Positions 3,609 to 48,373 of a stretch of DNA of 55,394 nucleotides are shown one piece after another; position 1 is the stretch's first letter, and every line of letters starts with the position of its first letter. Made by a program: the position numbers and the translations under genes. The DNA comes from Verrucomicrobiota bacterium (GTDB taxonomy: Bacteria; Verrucomicrobiota; Verrucomicrobiia; Opitutales; Opitutaceae): assembly GCA_016871755.1 (NCBI GenBank), contig VHCJ01000020.1:1-55394 (forward strand), given 5' to 3'. The notes beneath the pieces were generated by a model. It did no database searches. It saw only the letters and a program-made list of their open reading frames with translations, and was not told the origin of the DNA.

Positions 3609-4628
3609 CTACCCCGGAAAGGTGCAACGCTCCGTTGCGACCGCCGGGTCGAAGGCCCGCCCGTCCCGCAGGTGATCCACCCACTGCTGCGCGAGCCACG
3701 GGCCGAGCAGCGCTCCTTTCGAGCCCAGCCCATTGCAGATGCCCTGCCCCGGACGTCCGGGCAGCCACCCCGCCACCGGTCGCAGGTCCGGAGCACTCGT
3801 CCGCCACCCCGCCAGCGCCGCCCGCACGCGCCACCCCGCGTCTCCGCCCAGACGGCGCGCGCTCGCGAGCAGCAACTCCCGCGATCCCGGCGAGGGCTCC
3901 AGGTCCAAGGCCGTGCGATCGTAGGTCGCCCCGACCGCCCACGCTCCGTCCGGCAGGGGAAGCAGCCAGTGTCCGTCATTCCGAATCTCGTCGCTCCCAC
4001 CCGCGCCGCGCGTCAACCCAGCGTCGCCGGCCATGGCCTCCAGGTGCAACAACTCCCCCTTCACCCGCTCCAGCACCACGCGCCGCCACGGAACCTCCGC
4101 AGCCCCGAGGCAGGCCACCGTCGGGAGGTCGCCGCCAGAGCACTCCGCCGCCGTCGCGCTGCGCTCACTCAACACGCCGCGCCGCCGCCAGCGTTGACGC
4201 GAGGCGTCGATCAACCGGGGCAGGTCGACATGGAACACGGGTTCGATCAGGAAGGCATCCTCCCGATCCGGGAGGGGGTGCAGGTACGGATCGAGTTCGC
4301 CGGTCCGTCGCTTCTGCGCAAAGATCTCCTGCTCCCGCACCGTGCGGAGTTCGCGCCGCACGCGCAGTTGCCGGAGCAGCGGCACCTCGAGCTCGCGTTC
4401 AATGAACCGGTACGCCGTCACGGCGGGGCCGAGCAAGGCATCGACCCGCCAGCTTTTCACCAGCCGCTGCCCGGTGACCGGATTGATGATGCCGGCGCCG
4501 ACCCGGGAGGCGGCCGCGGCGTGGCCCGGATCGATCAGGTGAAACCGCACCCCGGCCGCCTCGCAGGCCCAGGCCAGAAGGGTGCCCGCCAGGCCCTGAC
4601 CGACGATCCGGATCTCCGCCTGGCGCAT
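3609..4628 (-). CDS. FAD-dependent oxidoreductase (DAO family)
   Basis: A 339-residue protein with a dinucleotide-binding start, IRIVGQGLAGTLLAWACEAAG, near the N-terminus, then SRVGAGIINPVTGQRLVKSW and a C-terminal RPVAGWLPG/GLGSKGALLGPW segment. It therefore belongs to the D-amino-acid-oxidase-like FAD proteins, related to the oxidase half of MnmC. It lacks any methyltransferase domain. The ATG at 4628 is preferred over one 30 bases upstream because AGGAGG stands five bases before it and the longer form would overlap the FKBP gene. It probably forms an operon with that FKBP gene (20-base gap). The substrate is unknown. Confidence 0.75.
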   Translation of the reverse strand: MRQAEIRIVGQGLAGTLLAWACEAAGVRFHLIDPGHAAAASRVGAGIINPVTGQRLVKSWRVDALLGPAVTAYRFIERELEVPLLRQLRVRRELRTVREQEIFAQKRRTGELDPYLHPLPDREDAFLIEPVFHVDLPRLIDASRQRWRRRGVLSERSATAAECSGGDLPTVACLGAAEVPWRRVVLERVKGELLHLEAMAGDAGLTRGAGGSDEIRNDGHWLLPLPDGAWAVGATYDRTALDLEPSPGSRELLLASARRLGGDAGWRVRAALAGWRTSAPDLRPVAGWLPGRPGQGICNGLGSKGALLGPWLAQQWVDHLRDGRAFDPAVATERCTFPG

Positions 4629-4633
4629 GCCGG

Positions 4634-4639
4634 CCTCCT
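4634..4639 (-). promoter_or_regulatory. Canonical Shine-Dalgarno AGGAGG
   Basis: On the minus strand AGGAGG is followed by five bases and the ATG at 4628. It decides the start of the oxidoreductase gene. It stands out because most genes in this window have no recognisable Shine-Dalgarno sequence. Confidence 0.75.
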
Positions 4640-4648
4640 GCGCGGACG

Positions 4649-5125
4649 TCAGCCGCAACGCCCGTCCGGCCCGTGCGCATGCCCGTGGGCAAGTTCCTCC
4701 GCGGAGGCGGCCCGGATCGAGACCACCTCGACGTCAAAGGTCAACGCCACGCCGGCCAGCGGGTGGTTGCCGTCAAGGGTCACGGTTTCCCCCTTCACGG
4801 CGACGACGGTGACGATGGGCGCCGCCGCGTCGTCGCCCACCTGAAAACGATCGCCCGCCTTGAGCTCGCCGGCCACCGGCAGCAACTCGCGGAGCACGTC
4901 CTGCACCTGCCGGGGATCGTGCTCCCCGTACGCCTCCGCCGCTGGCACCTCCACACGCGCCTTCGTGCCGGCCGCCGCGTCGCGCAGCCGCCGGTCGAGG
5001 CCGTCGATGATCTGACCGGCACCTTCAAGGTAAAGGATCGGTGTCCCTCCCGCAGAGGTATCGATCACGCGACCCTCAGGGTCGCGCAGCGTGTAGTGAA
5101 ACGAAACCACGCGGCGGTTGCTCAT
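4649..5125 (-). CDS. SlyD-like FKBP-type peptidyl-prolyl isomerase
   Basis: A 158-residue cytoplasmic protein matching the SlyD group of FKBP prolyl isomerases and chaperones. Seen in order: VSFHYTLRDPEGRVIDTS at the N-terminus, PILYLEGAGQIIDGLDRRL, AAEAYGEHDP, the inserted-flap region (residues 70-120) and TLDGNHPLAGVALTFDVEV, which is diagnostic. The tail is short, HGHAHGPDGRCG, a reduced version of the metal-binding histidine/cysteine tail of SlyD. The downstream FAD oxidoreductase starts 20 bases after the stop, which suggests co-transcription. Confidence 0.88.
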   Translation of the reverse strand: MSNRRVVSFHYTLRDPEGRVIDTSAGGTPILYLEGAGQIIDGLDRRLRDAAAGTKARVEVPAAEAYGEHDPRQVQDVLRELLPVAGELKAGDRFQVGDDAAAPIVTVVAVKGETVTLDGNHPLAGVALTFDVEVVSIRAASAEELAHGHAHGPDGRCG

Positions 5126-5260
5126 GCCCTCATGGGGACACAGTCCGCCGGGAACGCCAGCCCGGATCGTCGCGGTCGGGGGGGACTCGCGCCGGCTCCC
5201 GAGTCGCCTGACCGCAGGGAGGACGGTCCCGGTCCAGCCCGCTCCCCGGCCACCCCCCGG

Positions 5261-7789
5261 TCAGGTCTCCTGCCGCAGGACCTCGAGCGGTGGGTGCGAC
5301 GCCACGCCGCGGTTGGCGAGCAGGCCGGTGAGGAGCGTCAGGCCGATGACCGCGGCGAACGCGCTCACGAGGGTAACCGGCGGCACCACGGGCGGCGCCT
5401 CGAAGACGAAGTGGGCGAGAAGTTGGCCGCCGACAATCGCCAGCCCGCATCCCACCGCGGCCGCCAGGGCGCCGAGGATGAAGTACTCGACGAGCTGGAT
5501 GCGCACCAACTGCCCGTGGCTCGCGCCGAGTGTCCGCAGCAGCACCGTCTCGCGGAGACGCTGGTAACGACCGCTGAGCACGGCTCCGGCGAGCACGATC
5601 ACCCCGGTGGCGACGGTGAACAGCGCCATGAACTGCACCACCCACTGGATCTTCGCCACGATCCCGTCGATCGTCTGCAGCACGAGCGTGAGATCGATCG
5701 CGGAGGCATTGGGGATGCGCGCCACCACCGCTTGCTGCAGCCGCGCGGACTCAGCGGGGTTGGCCGCGCGCGTCGCCGCCACGAAGAACTTGGGGGCTCC
5801 CTCCAGCACGCCTTCCGGGAAGACCAGGAAGAAGTTGGGCTCAAGGCGCCGCCACTCCACCTCGCGCAGGCTCGCCACCCGCGCCTCGACCGTCACGCCC
5901 TGCACGTTGAACTCAAGCGTGTCACCCAGTCCCAGCTGCAGGTCGCGGGCGATCCCGCGCTCCAGCGACACCGGCACGACCGCGGCGTCGGGCGCGACGC
6001 GCGGGACCCACTCGCCCGCGATCAGTCGCTCCGTATCGGCCAGCGCGGCCCGGTAGCTCGACCGGTACTCGCGCCGCAGCGTCCACGCCGGGATCGTCGA
6101 CTGCCCTTCGCGCAGGAGGTCCTCGACCGGCCGGCCCTTCAGGCGGCTCACGCGCATGGTGACAATCGGGGCGCGCGACTGCAGCGGCACCCCGGCCTCG
6201 CGCAGGGTGTCCTCAAGCGGACCGATCTGGTCATCCTGCACGTCAAAGAAGACGAGATTCGGCCGGTCGCCGCCGCCCGACCCCTCGATCTGCGCCAGCA
6301 GCGTCGCCCGCGTGAGGGCCAGGGTCACGATCAGGAACGTGCCCAGACCCAAGGCGAGCAGGAGCAGCACGGTGCGGTTGTTCGGCCGGTGCAGGTTCGC
6401 CACGCCCTGCCGCAGGACATACGGGGCGCCGCGCGGAACGACGCGGCGGGCCAGCCACGCCACGACCCGGGCGAGGCCGGCGAGCACGCCGAAGCCGACC
6501 AGGAGGGCGACGACGAAACCGACGGCGACAACCCAGCGCGGCGCCTGCAACCACGCGAAGCCGGCCACGGCCGCCACGATGGCGAGGTACACCGCCCAGC
6601 GCAGCGGGTCCGGCCGGTCCGGATCGTCGGCGAACGACGAGCGGATCGCCCGCAGCGGCGACACGCGGCGCACGGCGAGCAGCGGCAGCAGGGTGAAGAG
6701 CAGGCAGATGCCGAGACCCAGCGCGATCCCGCGGGTGACCGCCGGCCAGTCCACCGAGAATTCGACCGCGAACGGCAGCAGCTTGCCCACCAGTGCAGGC
6801 AGCGCCAATTGCACCGCCACCCCCAGCGCCGCGCCGAGCACCGCGCCAAAGAGCCCCAGGCCGAGTCCCTGCACAAGGTAGACCGCAAAACTGCGCCACG
6901 CACTCGCTCCAAGGCAGCGCAGCACCGCCACGGTCGCCAGCTTCTGGCGCACGTAGACATGAATCGAACTGGCCACCCCGATCGCACCGAGGAAGAGCGC
7001 GACAAACCCCACGAGGCTCAGGAACGCATCGACATTCCTGACGCCGTTGCCCAATTCGCGCCGCCGCTCCTCGACGGTATCGAACCCGAGGCGCAGTTCA
7101 CTGAAGCGGCCGCGCAACTCGGTCACGAGCGCCTCGACATTGACCTCCGGCGCGAAGCGAAAGTAGGTCCGGTAGCGCACCAAGCTCCCGGGCCCGAGAA
7201 GCCCGGTCTCAGCGAGACGCGAACGGGCAATGAAGACGCGGGGCGAAAGCAGCGCGACGGCGGCCGATTCGCCGGGGATGGAGCGCAGGGCGCCGACGAT
7301 GGTGAACGTGCCCTGGCCCAGACGGATCGGGTCACCCACCTTCACCCCGAACTGACTGAGGAGCGTCTCCTCGACCACCGCCACCGCTTCCCCGCGCGAC
7401 AGGCGCCCGGCGGCGTCCAGCGGCTCGGTGAGAAACTCCCCATAAAACGGATAGGCTCCCTCGAGCGCGCGGAGCGTCACGAGCCGGGTCTGGCCCCCCG
7501 CCGAGGGAAAGACCACCATCGAGGCAAAGACCACTTCCTCGGAGCGCTCGCCACCCAGGCCGTCGAGGAAAGCCCGGGCCTCGGGCGTGAGCGCGGACCG
7601 GGACTGGACCGCCAAATCCGCGCCGAGCAGCGCCTTGGCCTGCCCGTCGATCGCGCGGCGCAGGTTCGCGCCGAACGAGCCGATCGCCACCAAGGCGGCG
7701 ACCCCGAGCACGATCGAAAGGGAAAACAACAAGAGCCGCCGGCGCGAGGCCCGCGAGTCCCGCCACGCCATCCGCAGTACGAAGCTCAC
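5261..7789 (-). CDS. ybbP: ABC transporter permease, FtsX/MacB type (YbbP-like)
   Basis: An 842-residue inner-membrane protein with a first membrane segment around LLLFSLSIVLGVAALVAIGS, two large extracytoplasmic domains and about ten membrane segments in all. The repeated FtsX-like pattern is clear: ATVAVLRCLGAS in the first half and ETVLLRTLGASHGQLVRIQLVEY in the second. Length is close to E. coli YbbP. I use the GTG at 7789: it overlaps the ATPase stop as GTGA, and the frame upstream is low-complexity Gly/Arg/Pro sequence unlike a protein start. It works with the adjacent ATPase, probably extracting or exporting an envelope substrate; the cargo is not known. Confidence 0.88.
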   Translation of the reverse strand: MSFVLRMAWRDSRASRRRLLLFSLSIVLGVAALVAIGSFGANLRRAIDGQAKALLGADLAVQSRSALTPEARAFLDGLGGERSEEVVFASMVVFPSAGGQTRLVTLRALEGAYPFYGEFLTEPLDAAGRLSRGEAVAVVEETLLSQFGVKVGDPIRLGQGTFTIVGALRSIPGESAAVALLSPRVFIARSRLAETGLLGPGSLVRYRTYFRFAPEVNVEALVTELRGRFSELRLGFDTVEERRRELGNGVRNVDAFLSLVGFVALFLGAIGVASSIHVYVRQKLATVAVLRCLGASAWRSFAVYLVQGLGLGLFGAVLGAALGVAVQLALPALVGKLLPFAVEFSVDWPAVTRGIALGLGICLLFTLLPLLAVRRVSPLRAIRSSFADDPDRPDPLRWAVYLAIVAAVAGFAWLQAPRWVVAVGFVVALLVGFGVLAGLARVVAWLARRVVPRGAPYVLRQGVANLHRPNNRTVLLLLALGLGTFLIVTLALTRATLLAQIEGSGGGDRPNLVFFDVQDDQIGPLEDTLREAGVPLQSRAPIVTMRVSRLKGRPVEDLLREGQSTIPAWTLRREYRSSYRAALADTERLIAGEWVPRVAPDAAVVPVSLERGIARDLQLGLGDTLEFNVQGVTVEARVASLREVEWRRLEPNFFLVFPEGVLEGAPKFFVAATRAANPAESARLQQAVVARIPNASAIDLTLVLQTIDGIVAKIQWVVQFMALFTVATGVIVLAGAVLSGRYQRLRETVLLRTLGASHGQLVRIQLVEYFILGALAAAVGCGLAIVGGQLLAHFVFEAPPVVPPVTLVSAFAAVIGLTLLTGLLANRGVASHPPLEVLRQET

Positions 7790-8523
7790 GCCGACGCGCC
7801 TCCCGCCGCCCGCACGGCCTCCCCCGCACCCTCGCCCTCGTCCAACACCACCACGCCGCCCCGCAGGCGGAGGATGCGGCGGCACCGCCGCGCCAGCTCA
7901 AGATCATGCGTCACCAGCACCAACGTCGCGCCGCGCTCGCGGTTCACCTCGAAAATCAACTCCGTCATCGCCGCCGCCGTCTCGCCGTCAAGGTTGCCCG
8001 TCGGCTCGTCACAGAAGAGAATCTTCGGCGCGTTGATGAACGCCCGTGCCAGCGCCACGCGCTGCTGTTCCCCCCCGGAGAGTTGCACCGGGTAATGCCC
8101 GCCGCGGGCCCCGAGGCCCACCCGCTCGAGGAGCGCGACGGCCGCCTCCTCCGCGCCCCGCAGCGCTGAAGTCCCACCGCCCCGCGCGGCCCGCAATTCC
8201 AACGGCACGAGCACGTTCTCGAGCGCCGTGAGCGTCGGGATCAACTGGAAGTTCTGGAAGACGAAGCCGACATGGTCATTGCGCATCCGCGCCCGGTCAT
8301 CCTCGGTCATCGCCCCGATCTCCTCGCCCGCCAACTCCACCCGTCCGGAGGTCGGCCGGTCCAGCCCGGCGCAGAGCCCAAGGAGCGTGGTCTTGCCGCT
8401 CCCGCTCGGGCCGACGATCGCGAGACTGGCCCCGGGGGCGAGCGAGAAGCTCACGTCCCGCAGCACCGTCAAGGGCCCCCCGAGGGAACCATAGGTCTTC
8501 GTCAGTCGCTCGACTTTCAGCAT
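7786..8523 (-). CDS. ybbA: ABC transporter ATP-binding protein (YbbA/LolD type)
   Basis: A 245-residue ABC ATPase. Walker A is GPSGSGKTT, the Q-loop VFQNFQLIPTLTALENV, the signature LSGGEQQRVALARAF, Walker B ILFCDEPTGNLD and the H-loop LVLVTHDLELA. The wording is that of the LolD/MacB/YbbA group that serves FtsX-type permeases. The start at 8523 gives MLKVERLTKTYG; an ATG four codons upstream (8535) is equally possible, and neither has a good ribosome site. The stop overlaps the permease start by four bases, so the two are translationally coupled. It is divergent from the TesA-like esterase, as in many proteobacteria. Confidence 0.92.
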   Translation of the reverse strand: MLKVERLTKTYGSLGGPLTVLRDVSFSLAPGASLAIVGPSGSGKTTLLGLCAGLDRPTSGRVELAGEEIGAMTEDDRARMRNDHVGFVFQNFQLIPTLTALENVLVPLELRAARGGGTSALRGAEEAAVALLERVGLGARGGHYPVQLSGGEQQRVALARAFINAPKILFCDEPTGNLDGETAAAMTELIFEVNRERGATLVLVTHDLELARRCRRILRLRGGVVVLDEGEGAGEAVRAAGGASA

Positions 8524-8581
8524 GGAATGGACCATAATCGCGAACCGCGAAACAATCCGCCGGACCGTAAACCGCAACTCC

Positions 8582-9298
8582 ATGACCCGCCTTTTCGCCC
8601 TATTCCAACTCGGCCTCGCGCTCGTCCTCGGCGCATTTCCGGCGCCGTCGCACGCTGCGGCCACCGCCGAAGGCGACGCCCGCCGGACGATCCTGTTCTT
8701 CGGGGACAGCCTGACCGCCGGCTATGGGCTGGAGAACCACCTGGTCGATGCGTTCCCGGGGGTGCTGCAGGCCAAGATTGACCGCGAGGGACTGGCCTAC
8801 CGGGTGGTGAACGCGGGCCTGAGCGGCGACACCACGGCCGGCGGGCTGCGCCGGATCGACTGGGTGCTCCGCCAGCCGGTCGACATCTTCATCCTCGAAC
8901 TCGGCGGCAACGATGGGCTTCGCGGCCTGCCGCTGGCCACGGCCCACGCCAACCTCGAAGCCATCATGGAGCGCGTGCGCGCCCGCAACCCACAGGTCCG
9001 GATCGTGCTCGCCGGCATGCAACTGCCCACGAGCATGGGGCCGTACGCGGAGGCCTTCGCCCGGCTCTTTCCCGACTTGGCCGCCGCGGCCGGCGTCGAA
9101 TTGATCCCTTTTCTTCTCGAGGGCGTGGGCGGCGTGCCGGAACTCAACCTGCCGGACGGCATTCACCCGACCGTCGAAGGGCACCGCCGCATCGCCGAGG
9201 TAGTCTGGCCCCACCTCCGCCCGCTCCTCGTCGCCCGGACCGCCGACGCCAGTCCGCAGTTGCACCCCGGCACCGGGAACGCGAGCGTGGGGCGATGA
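8582..9298 (+). CDS. tesA: TesA-like SGNH arylesterase/lysophospholipase, exported
   Basis: A 238-residue periplasmic SGNH hydrolase. The signal peptide is MTRLFALFQLGLALVLGAFP, cleaving after PSHA. Block I is FFGDSLTAGYG with the nucleophile serine, block II GLSGDTTAGG, block III ELGGNDGLRG and block V DGIHPTVEGH with the catalytic Asp and His. I chose the ATG at 8582 because it begins the signal peptide; the upstream in-frame ATG at 8522 would put a charged tail in front of it. It is divergent from ybbA with about 50-60 bases between, a conserved arrangement. The family hydrolyses thioesters and lysophospholipids. Confidence 0.9.
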   Translation: MTRLFALFQLGLALVLGAFPAPSHAAATAEGDARRTILFFGDSLTAGYGLENHLVDAFPGVLQAKIDREGLAYRVVNAGLSGDTTAGGLRRIDWVLRQPVDIFILELGGNDGLRGLPLATAHANLEAIMERVRARNPQVRIVLAGMQLPTSMGPYAEAFARLFPDLAAAAGVELIPFLLEGVGGVPELNLPDGIHPTVEGHRRIAEVVWPHLRPLLVARTADASPQLHPGTGNASVGR

Positions 9299-9765
9299 AA
9301 GCCACCTTCACCGCGAAGGAATACGCCCGCCTCCTCGAGCTGCTGCACTACGCGCTCCATGTGGTGCATGCGTACCACGGCCCGGACAACCCCTCCAGCA
9401 CCCGCTACGACGCACTGGAGCAGAAGCTGCTGGCGCTGGCGACGCCGATGGGCTGCGGCGACTTGGTCGAGGGCCTGCCCGACGGCCGGCTGCGCATCGC
9501 GGAGAAGTTCATCCGCGAGGATCGCATCGAAAAGATGCTTTCCGAGCACACCAACGACACGTTCTGGCATGAGCTCGTGGCGCGGCTCGCGGACCGCGAC
9601 TGCTCCTCCGAACAGGCCCGGCGTCACCTCGCCTCCAGCACGCCCGGCGTCGAACCACCGCCGTCCATCGAGCAGCAGGTGGAAAAAATCGAGGACGCCT
9701 ACTGGGCGGAGTTCCAGAAGCACGACCTCAACAACGTGATCGTGCTCCGCGGCGGGCAGGGCTGA
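9295..9765 (+). CDS. Conserved-looking hypothetical protein coupled to tesA
   Basis: I do not recognise this 156-residue protein. It is soluble, with no signal or membrane segment. It is helix-rich, with YARLLELLHYALHVVHAYHG near the N-terminus, a middle RIAEKFIREDRIEKML and a C-terminal SIEQQVEKIEDAYWAEF helix. The ATG overlaps the esterase stop as ATGA, so it is probably translated with tesA. Codon composition and amino acid balance look like a real protein rather than a shadow frame. Confidence 0.7.
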   Translation: MKATFTAKEYARLLELLHYALHVVHAYHGPDNPSSTRYDALEQKLLALATPMGCGDLVEGLPDGRLRIAEKFIREDRIEKMLSEHTNDTFWHELVARLADRDCSSEQARRHLASSTPGVEPPPSIEQQVEKIEDAYWAEFQKHDLNNVIVLRGGQG

Positions 9766-41580: not shown

Positions 41581-43788
41581 ATGTCCTCCTCCTCCCGCTC
41601 CGCTCTCCACGCCACCGTCGAGCCCAGCCAGGGCCGCGCGGTCCTGCTGCTCAACGGACAGCCCACCGCTCCGGTCATCTACGCCCTGACCGACTGCCCC
41701 GGCGGTCGCTTCTCGTGGGAGGAGGTCCCCCAACGCAATCTCCGGCTCTTCGCCGACCACGGTTGCCGGCTCTTCCAAGCGGACCTGTGGCTCGAGTGGC
41801 TGCTCGGTCCGGACGACTCCCTCGACCTCACCCTCGCCCGGCGTCAGGTCCGCGGGATCCTCGACGCCTGCCCGGACGCCGCCGTCATGCTGCGCGTCCA
41901 CCTCAACCCGCCACCCGCCTGGTGCGCTGCGCATCCCGACGAATGCGTCCACTACGCCGATGGCCCGGCGGAACCGGAGGAACGCTGGGGATTGGAACGG
42001 TGGATCGGTCGCGACAACGACGCCCCGGTCCGCGCGAGTTTCTCATCCACGCTCTGGCAGGCATGGGCGCAGCGTCAGCTCGCGCGCTTCTGCGAGGCCT
42101 TCGGCGCCACGCCGGAGGGGGGCGCAGTCTTCGCCCTGCAGGTCGCCTACGGGGTCTACGGCGAATGGCACCAATTCGGTTTCTTCGCCCACGATCCGGA
42201 TGTCAGCCCCGCCGCCACCGCCGGCTTCCAGCGCTGGACCCAGCGGCAGTACGGCACCGAGGCCGCCCTCGCCGCCGCGTGGAACCAACCGGGGATCACG
42301 TGGGGCGCAATTCGCCCGCCCGACTCCCCGGCACGCGAGCGCGCCGCCCTCGCCATCCTCCGCGATCCGGCCACGCAACGCGATGTCATCGACTACTTCC
42401 TTTTCCAGCACGAGGAACTCGCCGACGCCGTCCTCGGGATGGCGCGCACCGTGAAGCGGTCCTGGCCCCGCCCCGTGCTGACCGCGACGTTCTTCGGGTA
42501 CTTCTACTGCGCCTTCGGACGCGAAGCCGCCGGCGGGCATCTCAGCCTCGATCGCCTGCTCGCCTCGCCCGACCTCGACTGCGTCTGCGCCACGCCCGCC
42601 TACACCCCCACCGCCCTGCCGCTCGGCGGCAGCGGCAATTCCCGCGGGCTCGTCGATGCCGTCCGCCGCGCCAGCAAGCTCTGGCTCGACGAAATGGACC
42701 GCGCCACCTCCGTCGCGCCCTGCCCTTGGGACAAGGCCTTCGCGAGTTCGCTCGCCGATGATGTCGCCGTGCTGCGCCGCAATCTCCTTCAGCCCATCAC
42801 GCGCGGCGGCGGCCTGTGGGGCTTCGACTTCGGCCCGATCGCCGGCACCCCGGCCTTCGCCCGGCTCGGCAACATCGGGTGGTGGGACCACCCCGTCCTG
42901 CAGCGCGAGTGGCAGGCGATCCGCACGCTCGCGCAGTCCCGGCTCGCCGCGCCCTATGAGCGCGCCAGCGATGTGCTCCTCCTGCACGATCCGTGGTCGT
43001 TCGCCCACCTCGCCTCCGCCCGCCACGATCCCACCCGGCTCGTCTTCGGCGTCATGCCGGTGTCCACCGTCGATCCGGTCTCCCGACTCCTCACCGACGG
43101 CGTCGTCGAATCGCTCTACCAGTCCGGCCTCATCCACACCGAGGGCCTCCTGTCGGAACTGCCCAACCTCGACGCGGCGCCATTCCGTCTGGTCGTGATC
43201 GCGACGTGCACGGTGCTCGACACCGCCCAGCGCCGCGCGATCCGCGAGCGCGTGGCGCGGCAGGGGCGGCACGTCGTGTTCCTCGGCTACGCGGCGTGGA
43301 GCGATGGGCAGCGCATCGGCGCCGACCGCGCCGCCGAACTCACGGACTTCCCGACCCGCCTCGTGCATCAGGACAACGCGGTCCAAACGATCGCCCTCGA
43401 CGACGCCCGTGAGACGCTCGCACTCGGCCGAGGCTTCGATCTTCCGGCAATCGAGGCCCCGGACGCTCAGGTCGTCGGCCGCTGGGCCGACGGCACGCCG
43501 AGCGCGGCGTGGCGCAAGGAGTCGGAGGCGACGTGGTGGACGTTCGCGCTCCCGCCGAATCACCCCTCGACGTGGCGCGCCCTCGGCCGCCGCGCGGGCT
43601 GCCTCGTGGTCAACGACGCCGACGAGACCACGCTCCTCGGCAACGGACTCGTCGTCGTGCACACCGTCGCCGGCGGCGCGCGTCACCTTCGCCTTCCCGG
43701 CGGCGGCACCGTCGCCGCGACCCTGCCGCCGCGCAGCACGACCGTCTTCGACTCGCGTACTGGCGAGGTGCTGCTCGCGGCGGAGTGA
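41581..43788 (+). CDS. GH42-like beta-galactosidase family protein
   Basis: A 735-residue cytoplasmic protein with the outline of clan GH-A glycosidases near GH42: a TIM barrel (residues 40-380), an alpha/beta trimerisation-like domain (about 400-640, VLLLHDPWSFAHLA, FLGYAAWSDGQRIG) and a beta domain at the end. The acid/base candidate is Glu195 in AYGVYGEWHQFG and the nucleophile candidate Glu371 in KLWLDEMDRA. The usual GH42 AWQxEN wording is changed to LQVAYGVYGEWH. The lack of a signal peptide and the symporter 68 bases downstream suggest hydrolysis of an imported glycoside. The sugar is unknown. Confidence 0.75.
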   Translation: MSSSSRSALHATVEPSQGRAVLLLNGQPTAPVIYALTDCPGGRFSWEEVPQRNLRLFADHGCRLFQADLWLEWLLGPDDSLDLTLARRQVRGILDACPDAAVMLRVHLNPPPAWCAAHPDECVHYADGPAEPEERWGLERWIGRDNDAPVRASFSSTLWQAWAQRQLARFCEAFGATPEGGAVFALQVAYGVYGEWHQFGFFAHDPDVSPAATAGFQRWTQRQYGTEAALAAAWNQPGITWGAIRPPDSPARERAALAILRDPATQRDVIDYFLFQHEELADAVLGMARTVKRSWPRPVLTATFFGYFYCAFGREAAGGHLSLDRLLASPDLDCVCATPAYTPTALPLGGSGNSRGLVDAVRRASKLWLDEMDRATSVAPCPWDKAFASSLADDVAVLRRNLLQPITRGGGLWGFDFGPIAGTPAFARLGNIGWWDHPVLQREWQAIRTLAQSRLAAPYERASDVLLLHDPWSFAHLASARHDPTRLVFGVMPVSTVDPVSRLLTDGVVESLYQSGLIHTEGLLSELPNLDAAPFRLVVIATCTVLDTAQRRAIRERVARQGRHVVFLGYAAWSDGQRIGADRAAELTDFPTRLVHQDNAVQTIALDDARETLALGRGFDLPAIEAPDAQVVGRWADGTPSAAWRKESEATWWTFALPPNHPSTWRALGRRAGCLVVNDADETTLLGNGLVVVHTVAGGARHLRLPGGGTVAATLPPRSTTVFDSRTGEVLLAAE

Positions 43789-43856
43789 TCCCGCGGACCG
43801 GTTCACCGACTCACGCCGAGGCTCTCCCGCCCCCGGCTCCCTCCTCCATCATCCCC

Positions 43857-45401
43857 ATGCCCCACGCCTTCAACCTTGCAGACTGGATCGTGATCGTCGG
43901 CTACCTCGGCGGCATCGTGGCGCTCGGCGTCTGGTTCGGACGCGACCAGCACACGACGCGCGACTACTTCCTCGGGAGCCGGAACATCCCGTGGTGGGGG
44001 ATTGGCATGTCGATCATTGCGGCGGAGACGAGCGCGCTGACGATCATCGGCGTCCCGGCGATCGCCTACGGCGGAAACTTTTTCTTCCTGCAGATGATCA
44101 TGGGGTACGTGATCGCGCGGGTGATCCTCGCAATCGTGATGGTGCCGCACTACCTGCGCGGCGAGATCTACTCGCCCTATCAACTGCTTGAGCAGCACCT
44201 CGGACCCGGGGCGCGGCGCCTGGCGGCCGCCTTCTTTCTGTTTCTCGAAACCATGGCGGCGGGCGTGCGCGTGTTCGTCGCGTGCATCCCGATCCGCCTC
44301 ATGCTCGGCGAGTCGATCTGCAGCCTCGGCGGTCTGGTGGATCCGATTCTCGGAGCGATCATCCTCTTCGTCGGCGTTTCGCTCGTGTACACCTACATCG
44401 GCGGCGTGAAGGCGGTGGTGTGGACGGACGCGGTGCAGTTCGGGCTCTTCCTCGCGGGGGGTGTTTTCACCATCCTCTACGTCCCGACGCTGATCGACGG
44501 TGGCTGGACCGCGGCCCTGCAGCAGGCGACGGCGGCCGGAAAGCTGGCGTGGCTGAACCTCGAATTCGGGCTCTCCGCCCCCTTCAATCTTTGGATGGGC
44601 CTGATCGGCGGCACCGTGATGGTCCTGTCGACTCACGGCGCGGAGCAGCTGATCGTGCAACGTGTGCTGGCCTGCGGCAGCGTGTCCGAGGGGCGGAAGG
44701 CCCTCGTGTTCAGTGCGGTTTTGATCTTCCCGCTCTTCCTCGTCTTCCTGCTCGTCGGGGCGCTCCTCTGGGTCTTCTACCAGGGGCATCCCTTCCAGAT
44801 TCCGCTGCCGGAAGGACGGCCCGGGATCAAGTCGGTGGATTTCGTCTTCCCGACCTTCATCCTCACCGAAACGCCGCACATCCTGAAGGGATTCCTCATC
44901 GTCGCGATCCTCTCGGCCGCGATGTCATCGATCAGCTCCGCACTCACCTCGCTGTCGTCGGTCTCGACGATGGATTTCGTGAAGCCGCTCCTGCCGAACC
45001 GCTCGGAGCGGTCCTTCCTCACCTTCAGCAAGCTCTCGACGATCGGCTGGGCCGCAGCCTTGGTGGGCGTGGCGTGGCTCACGCGGGAGGTGCAGTTCGT
45101 GCTCAACGCCGCGTTCTCGCTGCGCGGCCTCACCAGCGGAGCCCTCCTCGGCGGGATCATCCTCGCGCTCTTCGCCCGCGGCGTCGGCGCCCGGGCGGCG
45201 ATGATCGGCATGAGCGCCTCGGTGCTGGTCATGAATCTCCTCTACTGGCCGCCGAACCTCACCGCGTGGCCAGGGGTGCGCGCGTGGTGGCTCGCCACGT
45301 TCGGCGGGGAAGTCTTCTGGCCGTGGTTCACCCTCATCGGAACGCTCATCACGCTCGGCGTGGCGTGGGCCACGCGGAGTCGCGGGACGAAGGCGACCTA
45401 G
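43857..45401 (+). CDS. Sodium:solute symporter (SSS family)
   Basis: A 514-residue inner-membrane Na+-coupled transporter with about 13-14 membrane segments. Typical parts are LADWIVIVGYLGGIVALGVW, TTRDYFLGSRNIPWWGIGMSIIAAETSALT, TYIGGVKAVVWTDAVQFGLFLAGG (the SSS signature), SFNLWMGLIGGTVMVLSTHGAEQLIVQRVLA-type sequence, and AILSAAMSSISSALTSLSSVSTMD with the Ser residues of the Na2 site. The start at 43857 begins the first segment; the longer frame overlaps the glycosidase. It is likely co-transcribed with the glycosidase and could bring in a sugar or glycoside. Confidence 0.9.
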   Translation: MPHAFNLADWIVIVGYLGGIVALGVWFGRDQHTTRDYFLGSRNIPWWGIGMSIIAAETSALTIIGVPAIAYGGNFFFLQMIMGYVIARVILAIVMVPHYLRGEIYSPYQLLEQHLGPGARRLAAAFFLFLETMAAGVRVFVACIPIRLMLGESICSLGGLVDPILGAIILFVGVSLVYTYIGGVKAVVWTDAVQFGLFLAGGVFTILYVPTLIDGGWTAALQQATAAGKLAWLNLEFGLSAPFNLWMGLIGGTVMVLSTHGAEQLIVQRVLACGSVSEGRKALVFSAVLIFPLFLVFLLVGALLWVFYQGHPFQIPLPEGRPGIKSVDFVFPTFILTETPHILKGFLIVAILSAAMSSISSALTSLSSVSTMDFVKPLLPNRSERSFLTFSKLSTIGWAAALVGVAWLTREVQFVLNAAFSLRGLTSGALLGGIILALFARGVGARAAMIGMSASVLVMNLLYWPPNLTAWPGVRAWWLATFGGEVFWPWFTLIGTLITLGVAWATRSRGTKAT

Positions 45402-45462
45402 GGCGCGCGCGCCCCGCCCGCAGCGGCGGATGGTAGCTGCGGCCTGCCGCCACCGCGCCGGG

Positions 45463-46608
45463 CTACGCCAGCACGCGGCGCAGGGCGGCGATCGCGCGGG
45501 TGTTTTCGTCGGGGAGGCCGACGGTGATGCGGACCCAGTCGAGGAGCGGCGGAAACGCCCGCGCCACCGCCACACCCTCCGCCTGCATCCGCGCGGCGAT
45601 CTCCGCCTGCGGACGGCCGGCGTGGAAGAAGACGAAGTTGCCCTGCGGCTCGGCGTAGGTGCGCCCCAGTTCGCGGAGCACGGCCGTGACGCGCGCCCGC
45701 TCCGCCATGATCCGCGCCCGGGTCGCCTTCACGAACGCCTCGTCCGCCAGACTCGCGGCGGCGGCCGCCACCGCCGGCGCACTCACTCCGCCGACCGAAT
45801 AACGGCGCAACTCGGCCGCGAGCGGAGCCGGTGTCACGAAATACCCGATCCGCAGACCCGCGAGGCCATGAATCTTGGAAAACGTCCGCGCCACGATCAG
45901 GCGACGGTCGTCGCGCACCAAATCGACCACGCTGCGCCGCGCCGCGTCGTCCACGATCTCGAGGTACGCCTCGTCGACGAGCAGCGTCGTGCGGCCCGCG
46001 ACGTCCGCAACGAATGCCCGCAGCGCCGCGGGATCGACCACCGTGCCGGTGGGGTTGTGCGGATTGGCCACGTAGACGACGGAGGTACCAGCGCCAACCT
46101 GCGCCGCCATCGCCGGCAAGTCGTGCTCGAGGCGCGCGTTGAGGGGCACCGCCCGTGCCCGCCCACCCATGGCCTCAAACGCCCGAGGCAACTGCAGGTA
46201 GCCGGGCGCGGCGTAAAGCGCCTCGCCGCCCTTGAGCCCGCAGTGAACGCCCAGGGTCTCAAGCAGTTCGCCCGAGCCCACGCCGAGCACGATCTGCGCC
46301 GGCGCCACGCCCTCGTACTGAGCAACCTGCTGCACGAACGCATGCACCTCGGCATAGGGATAACGCGCGCCTCGATCCGAGGCCACCAGGCGGTGCATCG
46401 CCTCGCGCGCGGACGCTCAGGGGCCGTAGGGATTCTCGTTCAACGAGAGGCGAATCAAGCCCGGCGCCACCGCCGCCAAGCGCTCGGCGCTCATCGTCTG
46501 CGCGCGCATCTCCTCGTTGAGGAAACGCCCGCCCAGTCCCAGCCCCGCAAGCGTCACGCCCGCTCTCGCCAACCATCGACGCCGCGAAACCAGAAGGGAA
46601 GCGTTCAT
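45463..46608 (-). pseudogene. Tat-exported HisC-like aminotransferase interrupted by an in-frame TGA
   Basis: Read as one frame, this is a 381-codon class I/II aminotransferase like histidinol-phosphate aminotransferase, with a twin-arginine signal (SRRRWLARAGVTLAGLGLGG). The first part ends RLSLNENPYGP and then TGA at 46417-46419. Without any frame change it continues ASAREAMHRLVASDRGARYPYAE, then VANPHNPTGTVV, LLVDEAYLEI and the PLP lysine in TFSKIHGLAGLRIGY. Relatives usually have Ser after NPYGP, and TCA to TGA is a single change. The rest of the gene is intact, so the break is recent or is a sequence error. Restart at ATG 46398 would give 311 residues without signal or N-terminal arm. 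Confidence 0.82.
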
Positions 46609-46982
46609 GCGCGCAAGGGGGATACGAGAATGAGCTCTGACAGCGCCGCCCCCCGGAGCGCAAGCCCGCGTCCGTCCTGACGTAGCCGCGCCGCGCGCGA
46701 CTGCGCCCGAACCGTCTGGCGGACCGAGCCCGCAGCGGAGCGCTCACGCGGGCACGGGAGATCCGGTTGCCCACGCGTTGGCCGGCGACCCGGACGCGGC
46801 CCACGACGGATCCTCCGAAAACGCCTCGCCTCGCCACGCCCGCCCACCCACCCACCGATCATGCCCCGTCCGGTCACGGGCCACCCAGCGCCGTCTCCCG
46901 GAATCGCCTTGCCGCACCGATGGGGCCGGCCTGAGCTTGCAGCCCTCACCGCGCGATCCGGCGCGGTCGCCCCTTCCACCCC
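46609..46982. other. Non-coding divergent gap
   Basis: 374 bases between the broken aminotransferase and the DUF1080 gene. No coding frame is convincing. It holds a bulged hairpin at 46728-46753 (GCCCGC-AGCG-GAG-CGCT-CAC-GCGGGC) and C-rich tracts near 46840. Promoters for both genes should lie here but I cannot place them. Confidence 0.6.
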
Positions 46983-47645
46983 ATGCGCACCCGGTCCTCC
47001 TTCCTCCTGCTCGTTCTGACGGCCTTGGCCTCGCCCCTCCTTTCCGCTGGGGAACCCACCCGCCTCTTCAACGGCCAGTCGCTCGCCGGCTGGGAGGGCG
47101 ACCCGCGCTGGTGGCGCGTCGAGCAGGGTGCGCTCTTCGGCGGGTCCCGCTCCGAGAAGATTCCGAAGAACGTCTTCCTCGCGACCACCCGCTCGTACCG
47201 CGATTTCGATCTCCGTCTCTCCCTGCGGCTGCGCGGCACGCCCAACACCGGGATGATCAACAGCGGCATCCAAATCCGCAGCCAACGGGTGCCCGACTCC
47301 ACCGAGATGCGCGGCTACCAGGTCGACGCCGGCGACGGCTGGTGGGGCAAGCTCTACGACGAATCGCGCCGCAACAAGGTCATCGCCACCGCCGCCGACC
47401 TCGCCGCCGTCAACGCCGCCGTGCGTCCCAACGACTGGAACGACTACCGCATCCTCGCCGAGGGGCCGCGGATCCGGACTTGGATCAACGGCGTGCCCGC
47501 CATCGACTTCACGGAGACCGATGCCTCCATCCCGCTCGACGGCCTGATCGGCATCCAGATCCACAGCGGCGGCGTCGCCACCATCGAGGTCCGCGAGGTC
47601 ATCCTCACCGAACTCGAGTCCAGCACGTCACGCGCGAGCAAGTAG
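46983..47645 (+). CDS. Exported DUF1080 protein (3-keto-disaccharide hydrolase fold)
   Basis: A 220-residue exported protein with signal peptide FLLLVLTALASPLLSA. The rest is one DUF1080 concanavalin-like domain: TRLFNGQSLAGWEG at the start (the LFNGxxLxGW mark), WWRVEQGALFGGS, DFDLRLSLRL, GMINSGIQIRSQRV, EMRGYQVDAGDGWWGKLYDE, WNDYRILAEGPRIRTWING and a C-terminal strand GLIGIQIHSGGVATIEVREV. Characterised relatives hydrolyse 3-keto-glycosides. These are abundant in Verrucomicrobiota and Planctomycetota. No glucoside 3-dehydrogenase partner is adjacent. Confidence 0.9.
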   Translation: MRTRSSFLLLVLTALASPLLSAGEPTRLFNGQSLAGWEGDPRWWRVEQGALFGGSRSEKIPKNVFLATTRSYRDFDLRLSLRLRGTPNTGMINSGIQIRSQRVPDSTEMRGYQVDAGDGWWGKLYDESRRNKVIATAADLAAVNAAVRPNDWNDYRILAEGPRIRTWINGVPAIDFTETDASIPLDGLIGIQIHSGGVATIEVREVILTELESSTSRASK

Positions 47646-47705
47646 TCCGGCCACGAAGCCAAGGTACACCGCAGGCTCGTCCTCACGAACCACCGGCGAG
47701 CGCGG

Positions 47706-47731
47706 GCGCGAGGTGGGCCTTCACCTCGCGC
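47706..47731. terminator. Perfect 10-bp hairpin between convergent genes
   Basis: GCGCGAGGTG-GGCCTT-CACCTCGCGC lies between the DUF1080 stop (47645) and the toxin stop (47748). The stem is perfect and AAA follows on the plus strand. It can serve both transcripts. Confidence 0.6.
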
Positions 47732-47747
47732 AAACCCGTCGGATCGG

Positions 47748-48089
47748 TTAACCCCAAGGCGGCAGGAGCTCTGCGGCCTCCGCCTTCGTCATCGAGGCTT
47801 TCGCACCATGCCGCACATGCAGAACATGCACGCGACTGTCGTGGATCGTGAAAATGAATCGATAACGCCCGCGCCTCCGGCCAAAGACCAACTGCCGGAG
47901 CACATACCTGGCGCTCAAGCTCTCCCTGGCCCGCGGACATCGCTGGGGAAAGTCAGCCAGCGACTGGATCGCGGACTGCATCGCTTCGAACCAATGCTCG
48001 GCCGCCTCCGCCGCGTGCACCGCAATCCAACCTGCGGCCTCGTCAATGTCCCGCTCCGCGCGGGGCTCGATGACGACCTGCACCTTCAC
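47748..48089 (-). CDS. RelE/ParE family toxin-like protein without a visible antitoxin
   Basis: A 113-residue protein of the RelE/ParE fold. VVIEPRAERDIDEAAGWIAVHA begins the family (the usual DIxxAxxWI), then FEAMQSAIQSLADFPQRCPRARE and the core strand YVLRQLVFGRRRGRYRFIFTIHDSRVHVLHVRHG, read here in parts. Basic residues near the C-terminal strands fit an mRNA- or gyrase-directed toxin. A Lys/Ala-rich tail follows. The start is GTG at 48089; a GTGA arrangement with a short upstream frame exists, but that frame does not resemble any antitoxin. Activity is not proven. Confidence 0.78.
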   Translation of the reverse strand: MKVQVVIEPRAERDIDEAAGWIAVHAAEAAEHWFEAMQSAIQSLADFPQRCPRARESLSARYVLRQLVFGRRRGRYRFIFTIHDSRVHVLHVRHGAKASMTKAEAAELLPPWG

Positions 48090-48373
48090 TTCGCAGAACG
48101 AACGCGGTGCTTCTGCCGAAGTCGGCGCGAGCCGCGCTGCGGCATCCGCAGCTTTTCTATCCGCAAATCCCTGCAGGGCAAAGCTTTGGCTGCGCGTTGA
48201 AAATTCACCGCATTGCGACGCGCTTATCCGCTACTCCGCGACACGGGGTTGACACAATCCGAGCAGACCAAACGCTCTCGCGGACTACCCTGCGCTCACG
48301 CTCGCCCGACGTCTCACGCCGTCGGACCCGATGAGCTTTTCCTCGTTCCGTCCGTCAACCCAGCAAGCACCTC

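Follow-up and report, generated by a model that had tools for sequence, protein, structure and literature searches.

The window, by which we mean the whole 55,394-nucleotide stretch of DNA analysed here, is a single contig from a draft genome of 3.67 Mb (144 contigs, 97.4% complete). Between positions 45463 and 46608 of its minus strand, translation gave one frame of 381 codons, including an internal TGA, closed by a TAG at 45465-45463. The sole in-frame TGA of this gene was codon 64 (46419-46417, minus strand), and no change of frame was found across it. The first part, 63 codons at 46420 to 46608, carried a twin-arginine signal (SRRRWL) and the motif NENPYGP, and on its own it gave no match in Pfam or NCBIfam. 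The second part, at 45463 to 46416, contained the aminotransferase domain and ran to the TAG. For the analysis of the protein, a read-through translation with the stop given as X was used (P0002), which begins at codon 2, so that a residue number is the codon number minus 1. Residues 6-379 of P0002, spanning both parts, were 63% and 62% identical to single-chain proteins of two congeners; the presence of the two halves in one frame is thus not due to chance. The original prediction had described both halves as lying in the same frame, in the order NENPYGP, TGA, ASAREA, and translation of the minus strand bore this out, the strand having been left unstated. Its description of a HisC-like aminotransferase with a Tat-type signal and one in-frame TGA was likewise upheld.

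To determine the family of the protein, P0002 was searched against Pfam and NCBIfam. Residues 50-372 matched PF00155 (Aminotran_1_2, aminotransferase class I/II) with 182 bits against a gathering cut-off of 19.7, and the second part alone scored 171.1 bits. K245 in TFSK was conserved together with D212, Y215 and R253, which we take to be the catalytic lysine and PLP-site residues. The best NCBIfam model was NF006580 (PRK09105 pyridoxal phosphate-dependent aminotransferase), which covered residues 5-379, Tat region included, but the score of 240.3 bits was under its curated cut-off of 444. The scores were also under the curated cut-offs for HisC (TIGR01141; 227.1 vs 276.55 bits) and for PtaA (NF051461; 204.6 vs 500 bits, E 1.7e-60). 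HisC belongs to the same domain family and has the same motifs, and the host genome encodes a HisC homologue separately and uninterrupted on contig C5 with 35% identity to the window protein; unlike HisC, the window protein bears a Tat signal. PtaA, the periplasmic transaminase A of Pseudomonas fluorescens that takes part in pyoverdine tailoring, is a PLP transaminase for which export in the folded state through Tat has been published (PMC6206403). The window aminotransferase resembles PtaA in general layout only, as its score was far below the cut-off of that model and its gene carries a stop. Much closer were the Tat-type aminotransferases of Opitutaceae (locus L011 of genome G009, L012 of G001 and L109 of CAIJZY010000052.1), which appeared orthologue-like; the 11 best other matches had 56-63% identity and the twin-arginine motif, and they differed from the window gene in having no stop and, where compared, in their genomic neighbours. 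The nearest named records were MAGs labelled Opitutae, Opitutaceae or Verrucomicrobia. Solved structures of relatives were also found by sequence search.

The N-terminus of the window protein contained SRRRWLA followed by a hydrophobic stretch (AGVTLAGLGLGG), and three matches to TatC over the cut-off were obtained in the host genome. A motif, a hydrophobic stretch and a translocase were thus all present, as expected of a Tat substrate, and export itself is predicted from these sequence features; inspection by eye did not reveal a clear cleavage site. In the 38 nearest aligned relatives the twin-arginine motif was present without exception, and R9, R10, W12, NEN and the G of NENPxG were invariant. 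When the 14 lower-scoring relatives were inspected by eye, the twin-arginine pair was seen in 10 and was absent in 4 (one each in L015, L016, L017 and L018). A Tat-exported aminotransferase had been considered unusual in itself; this view did not hold, given the motif in 38/38 relatives and the Tat export reported for PtaA and PvdN of Pseudomonas (PMC6206403).

Two further observations were made on these genes. Related aminotransferase genes lay side by side as pairs in G002, G016, G027, G038 and G056 and also in loci of G258 and G259 (L014-L018, L059 and L064); in the pairs of L015-L018, as read by eye, one member had a twin-arginine start and the other lacked it, resembling an ordinary Sec signal. 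Among the TatC matches of the host genome, two were of nearly equal score (C49, 1436-2086, and C107, 1411-2061) and both lay in 361-aa frames, possibly because the region is duplicated in the genome or was duplicated during assembly; the third was on C10.

To compare the stop site with that of relatives, the family was searched at E up to 1e-75, and the gene was found in 40 of 252 genomes, the window's included (39 of 251 others). Among the 44 matches listed, the window's was the only one with an internal stop (0/43 others). We aligned 52 coding sequences, and the 14 with a tblastn score under 275 were left out to give the 38-row analyses. At the position of the TGA, Ser was found in 28 of these 38 relatives and Ala in 10. 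The site was also checked in 10 Opitutae/Verrucomicrobia loci (L109-L118) out of 30 named-record loci, some of which repeat genomes already included under G numbers; Ser was present in 4 and Ala in 6, and all 10 had the twin-arginine motif. The relatives examined encode one chain, so that the separate encoding of the two parts, which had been named as the observation that would speak against a broken gene, was not seen. The lost codon had been given as TCA. This proved to be a guess, as TCA occurs at the site in 10/38 relatives but the nearest two have another Ser codon; TCA is also rare in the window, where it makes up 22 of the 740 Ser codons counted over 31 long ORFs and 0/13 of those in the aminotransferase gene. 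TCA is therefore not established as the ancestral codon. A second homologue bearing a TGA (in G035) was considered and rejected, since in that gene an ordinary HisC-like start follows the TGA.

The state of the rest of the gene was then assessed. GC3 was 0.86, as compared with 0.86 and 0.83 in the two nearest relatives. Out of 50 columns invariant across the 38 relatives, 49 were kept, and the sole change was V to L at residue 209; from residue 70 onwards, that is in the second part, 41 of 42 invariant columns were kept. In a neutral simulation, the gene stayed free of further stops with no more than one invariant residue changed in 10% of cases at 0.03 substitutions per site and in 2% at 0.05. 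Taken together, the open remaining frame, the GC3, the kept invariant residues and the simulation indicate that the break is young, or else an error. In relative-rate tests against G009 and G001, the window copy had more private amino-acid changes, with p<0.05 in 10/12 comparisons; with L048 as the outgroup, p was 0.08 and 0.74. The control with HisC gave p<0.05 in 1/10 comparisons and the same lean in 9/10. In the gene tree the branch of the window copy was 0.46, versus 0.08 and 0.12 (plus a shared 0.11) for G009 and G001, to which it was joined at support 89/87. The faster protein change fits relaxed constraint and would also fit descent from an unsampled donor, for which the different position of the gene in G009 and G001 and the 89/87 support of the joining branch leave room; because lateral gain explains the acceleration too, we take it as weak support for decay and not as proof.

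In order to place the gene among its congeners, the corresponding loci were compared. The closest genomes were G005 and G003, with HisC identities to the window genome of 89% and 87%, followed by G009 (79%) and G001 (75%); the closeness of G003 and G005 rests on this one gene, and the G002 row of that tree is no HisC. At E up to 1e-60 neither G003 nor G005 gave a match to the aminotransferase gene, and the one match that each gave near 1e-45 was HisC. Their locus was collinear with the window at 81-89% DNA identity in the order HtrA-like protease, iron alcohol dehydrogenase, a weak DUF4350 match, sodium:solute symporter, 3-keto-disaccharide hydrolase, TonB receptor and PQQ dehydrogenase, some of the outermost genes being cut by the ends of the stretches compared. 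The alignment ended at 45391 and restarted at 46895 (G003) or 46898 (G005), and in place of the intervening bases G003 had 122 and G005 had 103, in which short chance-level matches to the aminotransferase gene were the only ones found. The collinear locus of the two sister species thus lacks a stretch of some 1.5 kb (45392 to 46894) in which the gene lies; the left neighbour of the gene, a sodium:solute symporter family gene (43710 to 45401, plus strand, start approximate), and its right neighbour, a 3-keto-disaccharide hydrolase family gene (46983 to 47645, plus strand), are in place in both.

Altogether 3/9 congeners had the gene at E up to 1e-60, two with 62-63% identity and one with 47% that falls elsewhere in the tree. 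In G009 and G001 the aminotransferase gene was at another place, on a contig other than that of the symporter; their symporter orthologue (81%) was on an 8-kb contig with no match to the aminotransferase gene. The window aminotransferase is thus an accessory orphan gene. It appears expendable because a separate HisC homologue exists, its presence is patchy (3/9 congeners, 39/251 family genomes) and it is absent in the two nearest sisters. The gene may either have been gained at this locus by the window lineage or have disappeared in the ancestor shared by G003 and G005, and the trees do not decide between the two.

A conserved operon was also looked for and rejected; in a comparison with 15 related loci, no window gene between 38597 and 54241 other than the aminotransferase itself had a match there at E up to 1e-15. 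Farther away, a sensor-kinase-like gene and a regulator did match, with 31-36% identity. With no conserved neighbours, the neighbourhood gives no clue to the substrate. An origin of the 1.5-kb segment as a mobile element was not supported, as no long repeats were found at its ends. A 13-base imperfect inverted pair lay near them (45449-45461 and 46958-46970) and was one of 12 short pairs in this GC-rich stretch; the GC of the segment was 0.70-0.75, compared with 0.63-0.73 around it.

Other features of the locus were noted in passing. A second small segment absent from both sisters (47617-48283) contained a ParE-like toxin gene (47748-48089, minus strand; Pfam ParE_toxin, 46.7 bits), and no antitoxin gene was seen beside it when the upstream stretch was read by eye. 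The symporter matches of the sisters (L189 at about 4000-5750 and L190 at about 8000-9700) each had one in-frame stop, TGA in G003 and TAA in G005. The G005 match split near its N-terminal end, so that the stop is probably located ahead of the true start, the query having extended beyond the conserved part on its upstream side.

Whether the TGA still permits a product was considered next. Read-through had been put forward as an option, and recoding or suppression of the TGA, by selenocysteine, a suppressor tRNA or simple read-through, would yield the full-length enzyme; in its favour, the stop is TGA, rather than TAA or TAG, and the frame goes on. However, the tRNAs, SelB and the general use of TGA lent this option no support. 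The sole match over the cut-off in the search for tRNA-Sec was identified by ARAGORN as a tRNA-Ser with anticodon tga, and the seven SelB matches were all under the cut-off, the best spanning positions 1-271 of 581, so that neither of the components expected in a genome encoding selenoproteins was recovered. Anticodon tca was found in 0/45 tRNA matches (ARAGORN; at 97.4% completeness one could be missing), and TGA terminated 29 of 44 mechanically chosen window ORFs. Nor did any of the ABC_tran and other Aminotran_1_2 matches of the genome, counted below, contain a stop. Leaky stop contexts usually have C after the stop, whereas the base after the in-frame TGA is G. We therefore regard recoding as extremely improbable. 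Alternatively, the gene might work as two pieces, with translation ending at codon 64 and restarting at an ATG 18 bases on, to give an export peptide and a cytoplasmic enzyme of 311 residues. The first ATG past the stop is indeed close and in frame (46398; ORF 45463 to 46398, minus strand), but it is the conserved internal Met of an 'EAM' stretch, and the only bases resembling a ribosome site (GAGG, part of the E-A codons) are 2 bases away from it. Of the 50 invariant positions, 8 would be missing from the restart product, NEN and G of the NENPxG motif among them, and of the Pfam domain it would be without at least the first 20 positions. The 43 other matches of the family search have no internal stop. 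A restart is possible on paper and, on this evidence, very unlikely. A functional split or a read-through product is accordingly unlikely in either form. Hardly any credence can be given to a combination of these ideas, in which a laterally gained Tat aminotransferase is kept as a conditional gene. Its stop, placed directly behind the export signal and the substrate motif, would be overcome by bypass or restart when required, and the cell could thereby alternate between making no enzyme, a cytoplasmic one or an exported one.

The alternative that deserves most attention is that the organism has an intact gene for an exported aminotransferase and that the TGA stems from faulty sequencing or assembly, or from a consensus base contributed by a minority strain. 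Apart from the TGA the gene has no lesion and looks like intact coding sequence, and the genome is a draft in 144 contigs; that nothing else in the gene has decayed, which counts against a nonsense mutation, is also what an error would give. On the other side, a survey of the assembly for broken frames in two families found no internal stop in 64 ABC_tran matches (61 over the cut-off) or in 11 other Aminotran_1_2 matches, which speaks weakly against error. The Ser codon of the nearest relatives is two bases away from TGA and the Ser codon one base away is the rare one, leaving few likely sources for a single wrong base; this too is a weak argument. An error thus seems rather unlikely, though it carries appreciable weight.

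The best explanation, in our view, is that a nonsense mutation arose recently in a Tat-type aminotransferase gene that the organism can dispense with; we give this a probability of roughly 0.75. The gene has a premature stop that its relatives lack, as is characteristic of a pseudogene, and the remainder is conserved, so that a young pseudogene, one of the readings offered in the original prediction, is the most likely. We infer that the organism itself carries the stop, that function has been abolished by it and that the enzyme was formerly exported. By analogy with PtaA and PvdN, the intact enzyme would have bound PLP and folded in the cytoplasm before passing through Tat to the periplasm. 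The nonsense mutation at codon 64 would end translation after the signal peptide and NENPYGP, and with the stop in place only a signal-bearing peptide of 63 residues would be made and no working exported enzyme.

It is ordinary for an accessory gene to be lost through a nonsense mutation, and the broken gene in itself matters little. The one useful addition made here is the series of presence and absence at the locus; within one genus, the gene is uninterrupted elsewhere in the genome (G009 and G001), interrupted in the window and absent at the collinear locus (G003 and G005). The role of orphan Tat-type aminotransferases in Opitutaceae is thereby open to comparison between species with and without the gene.
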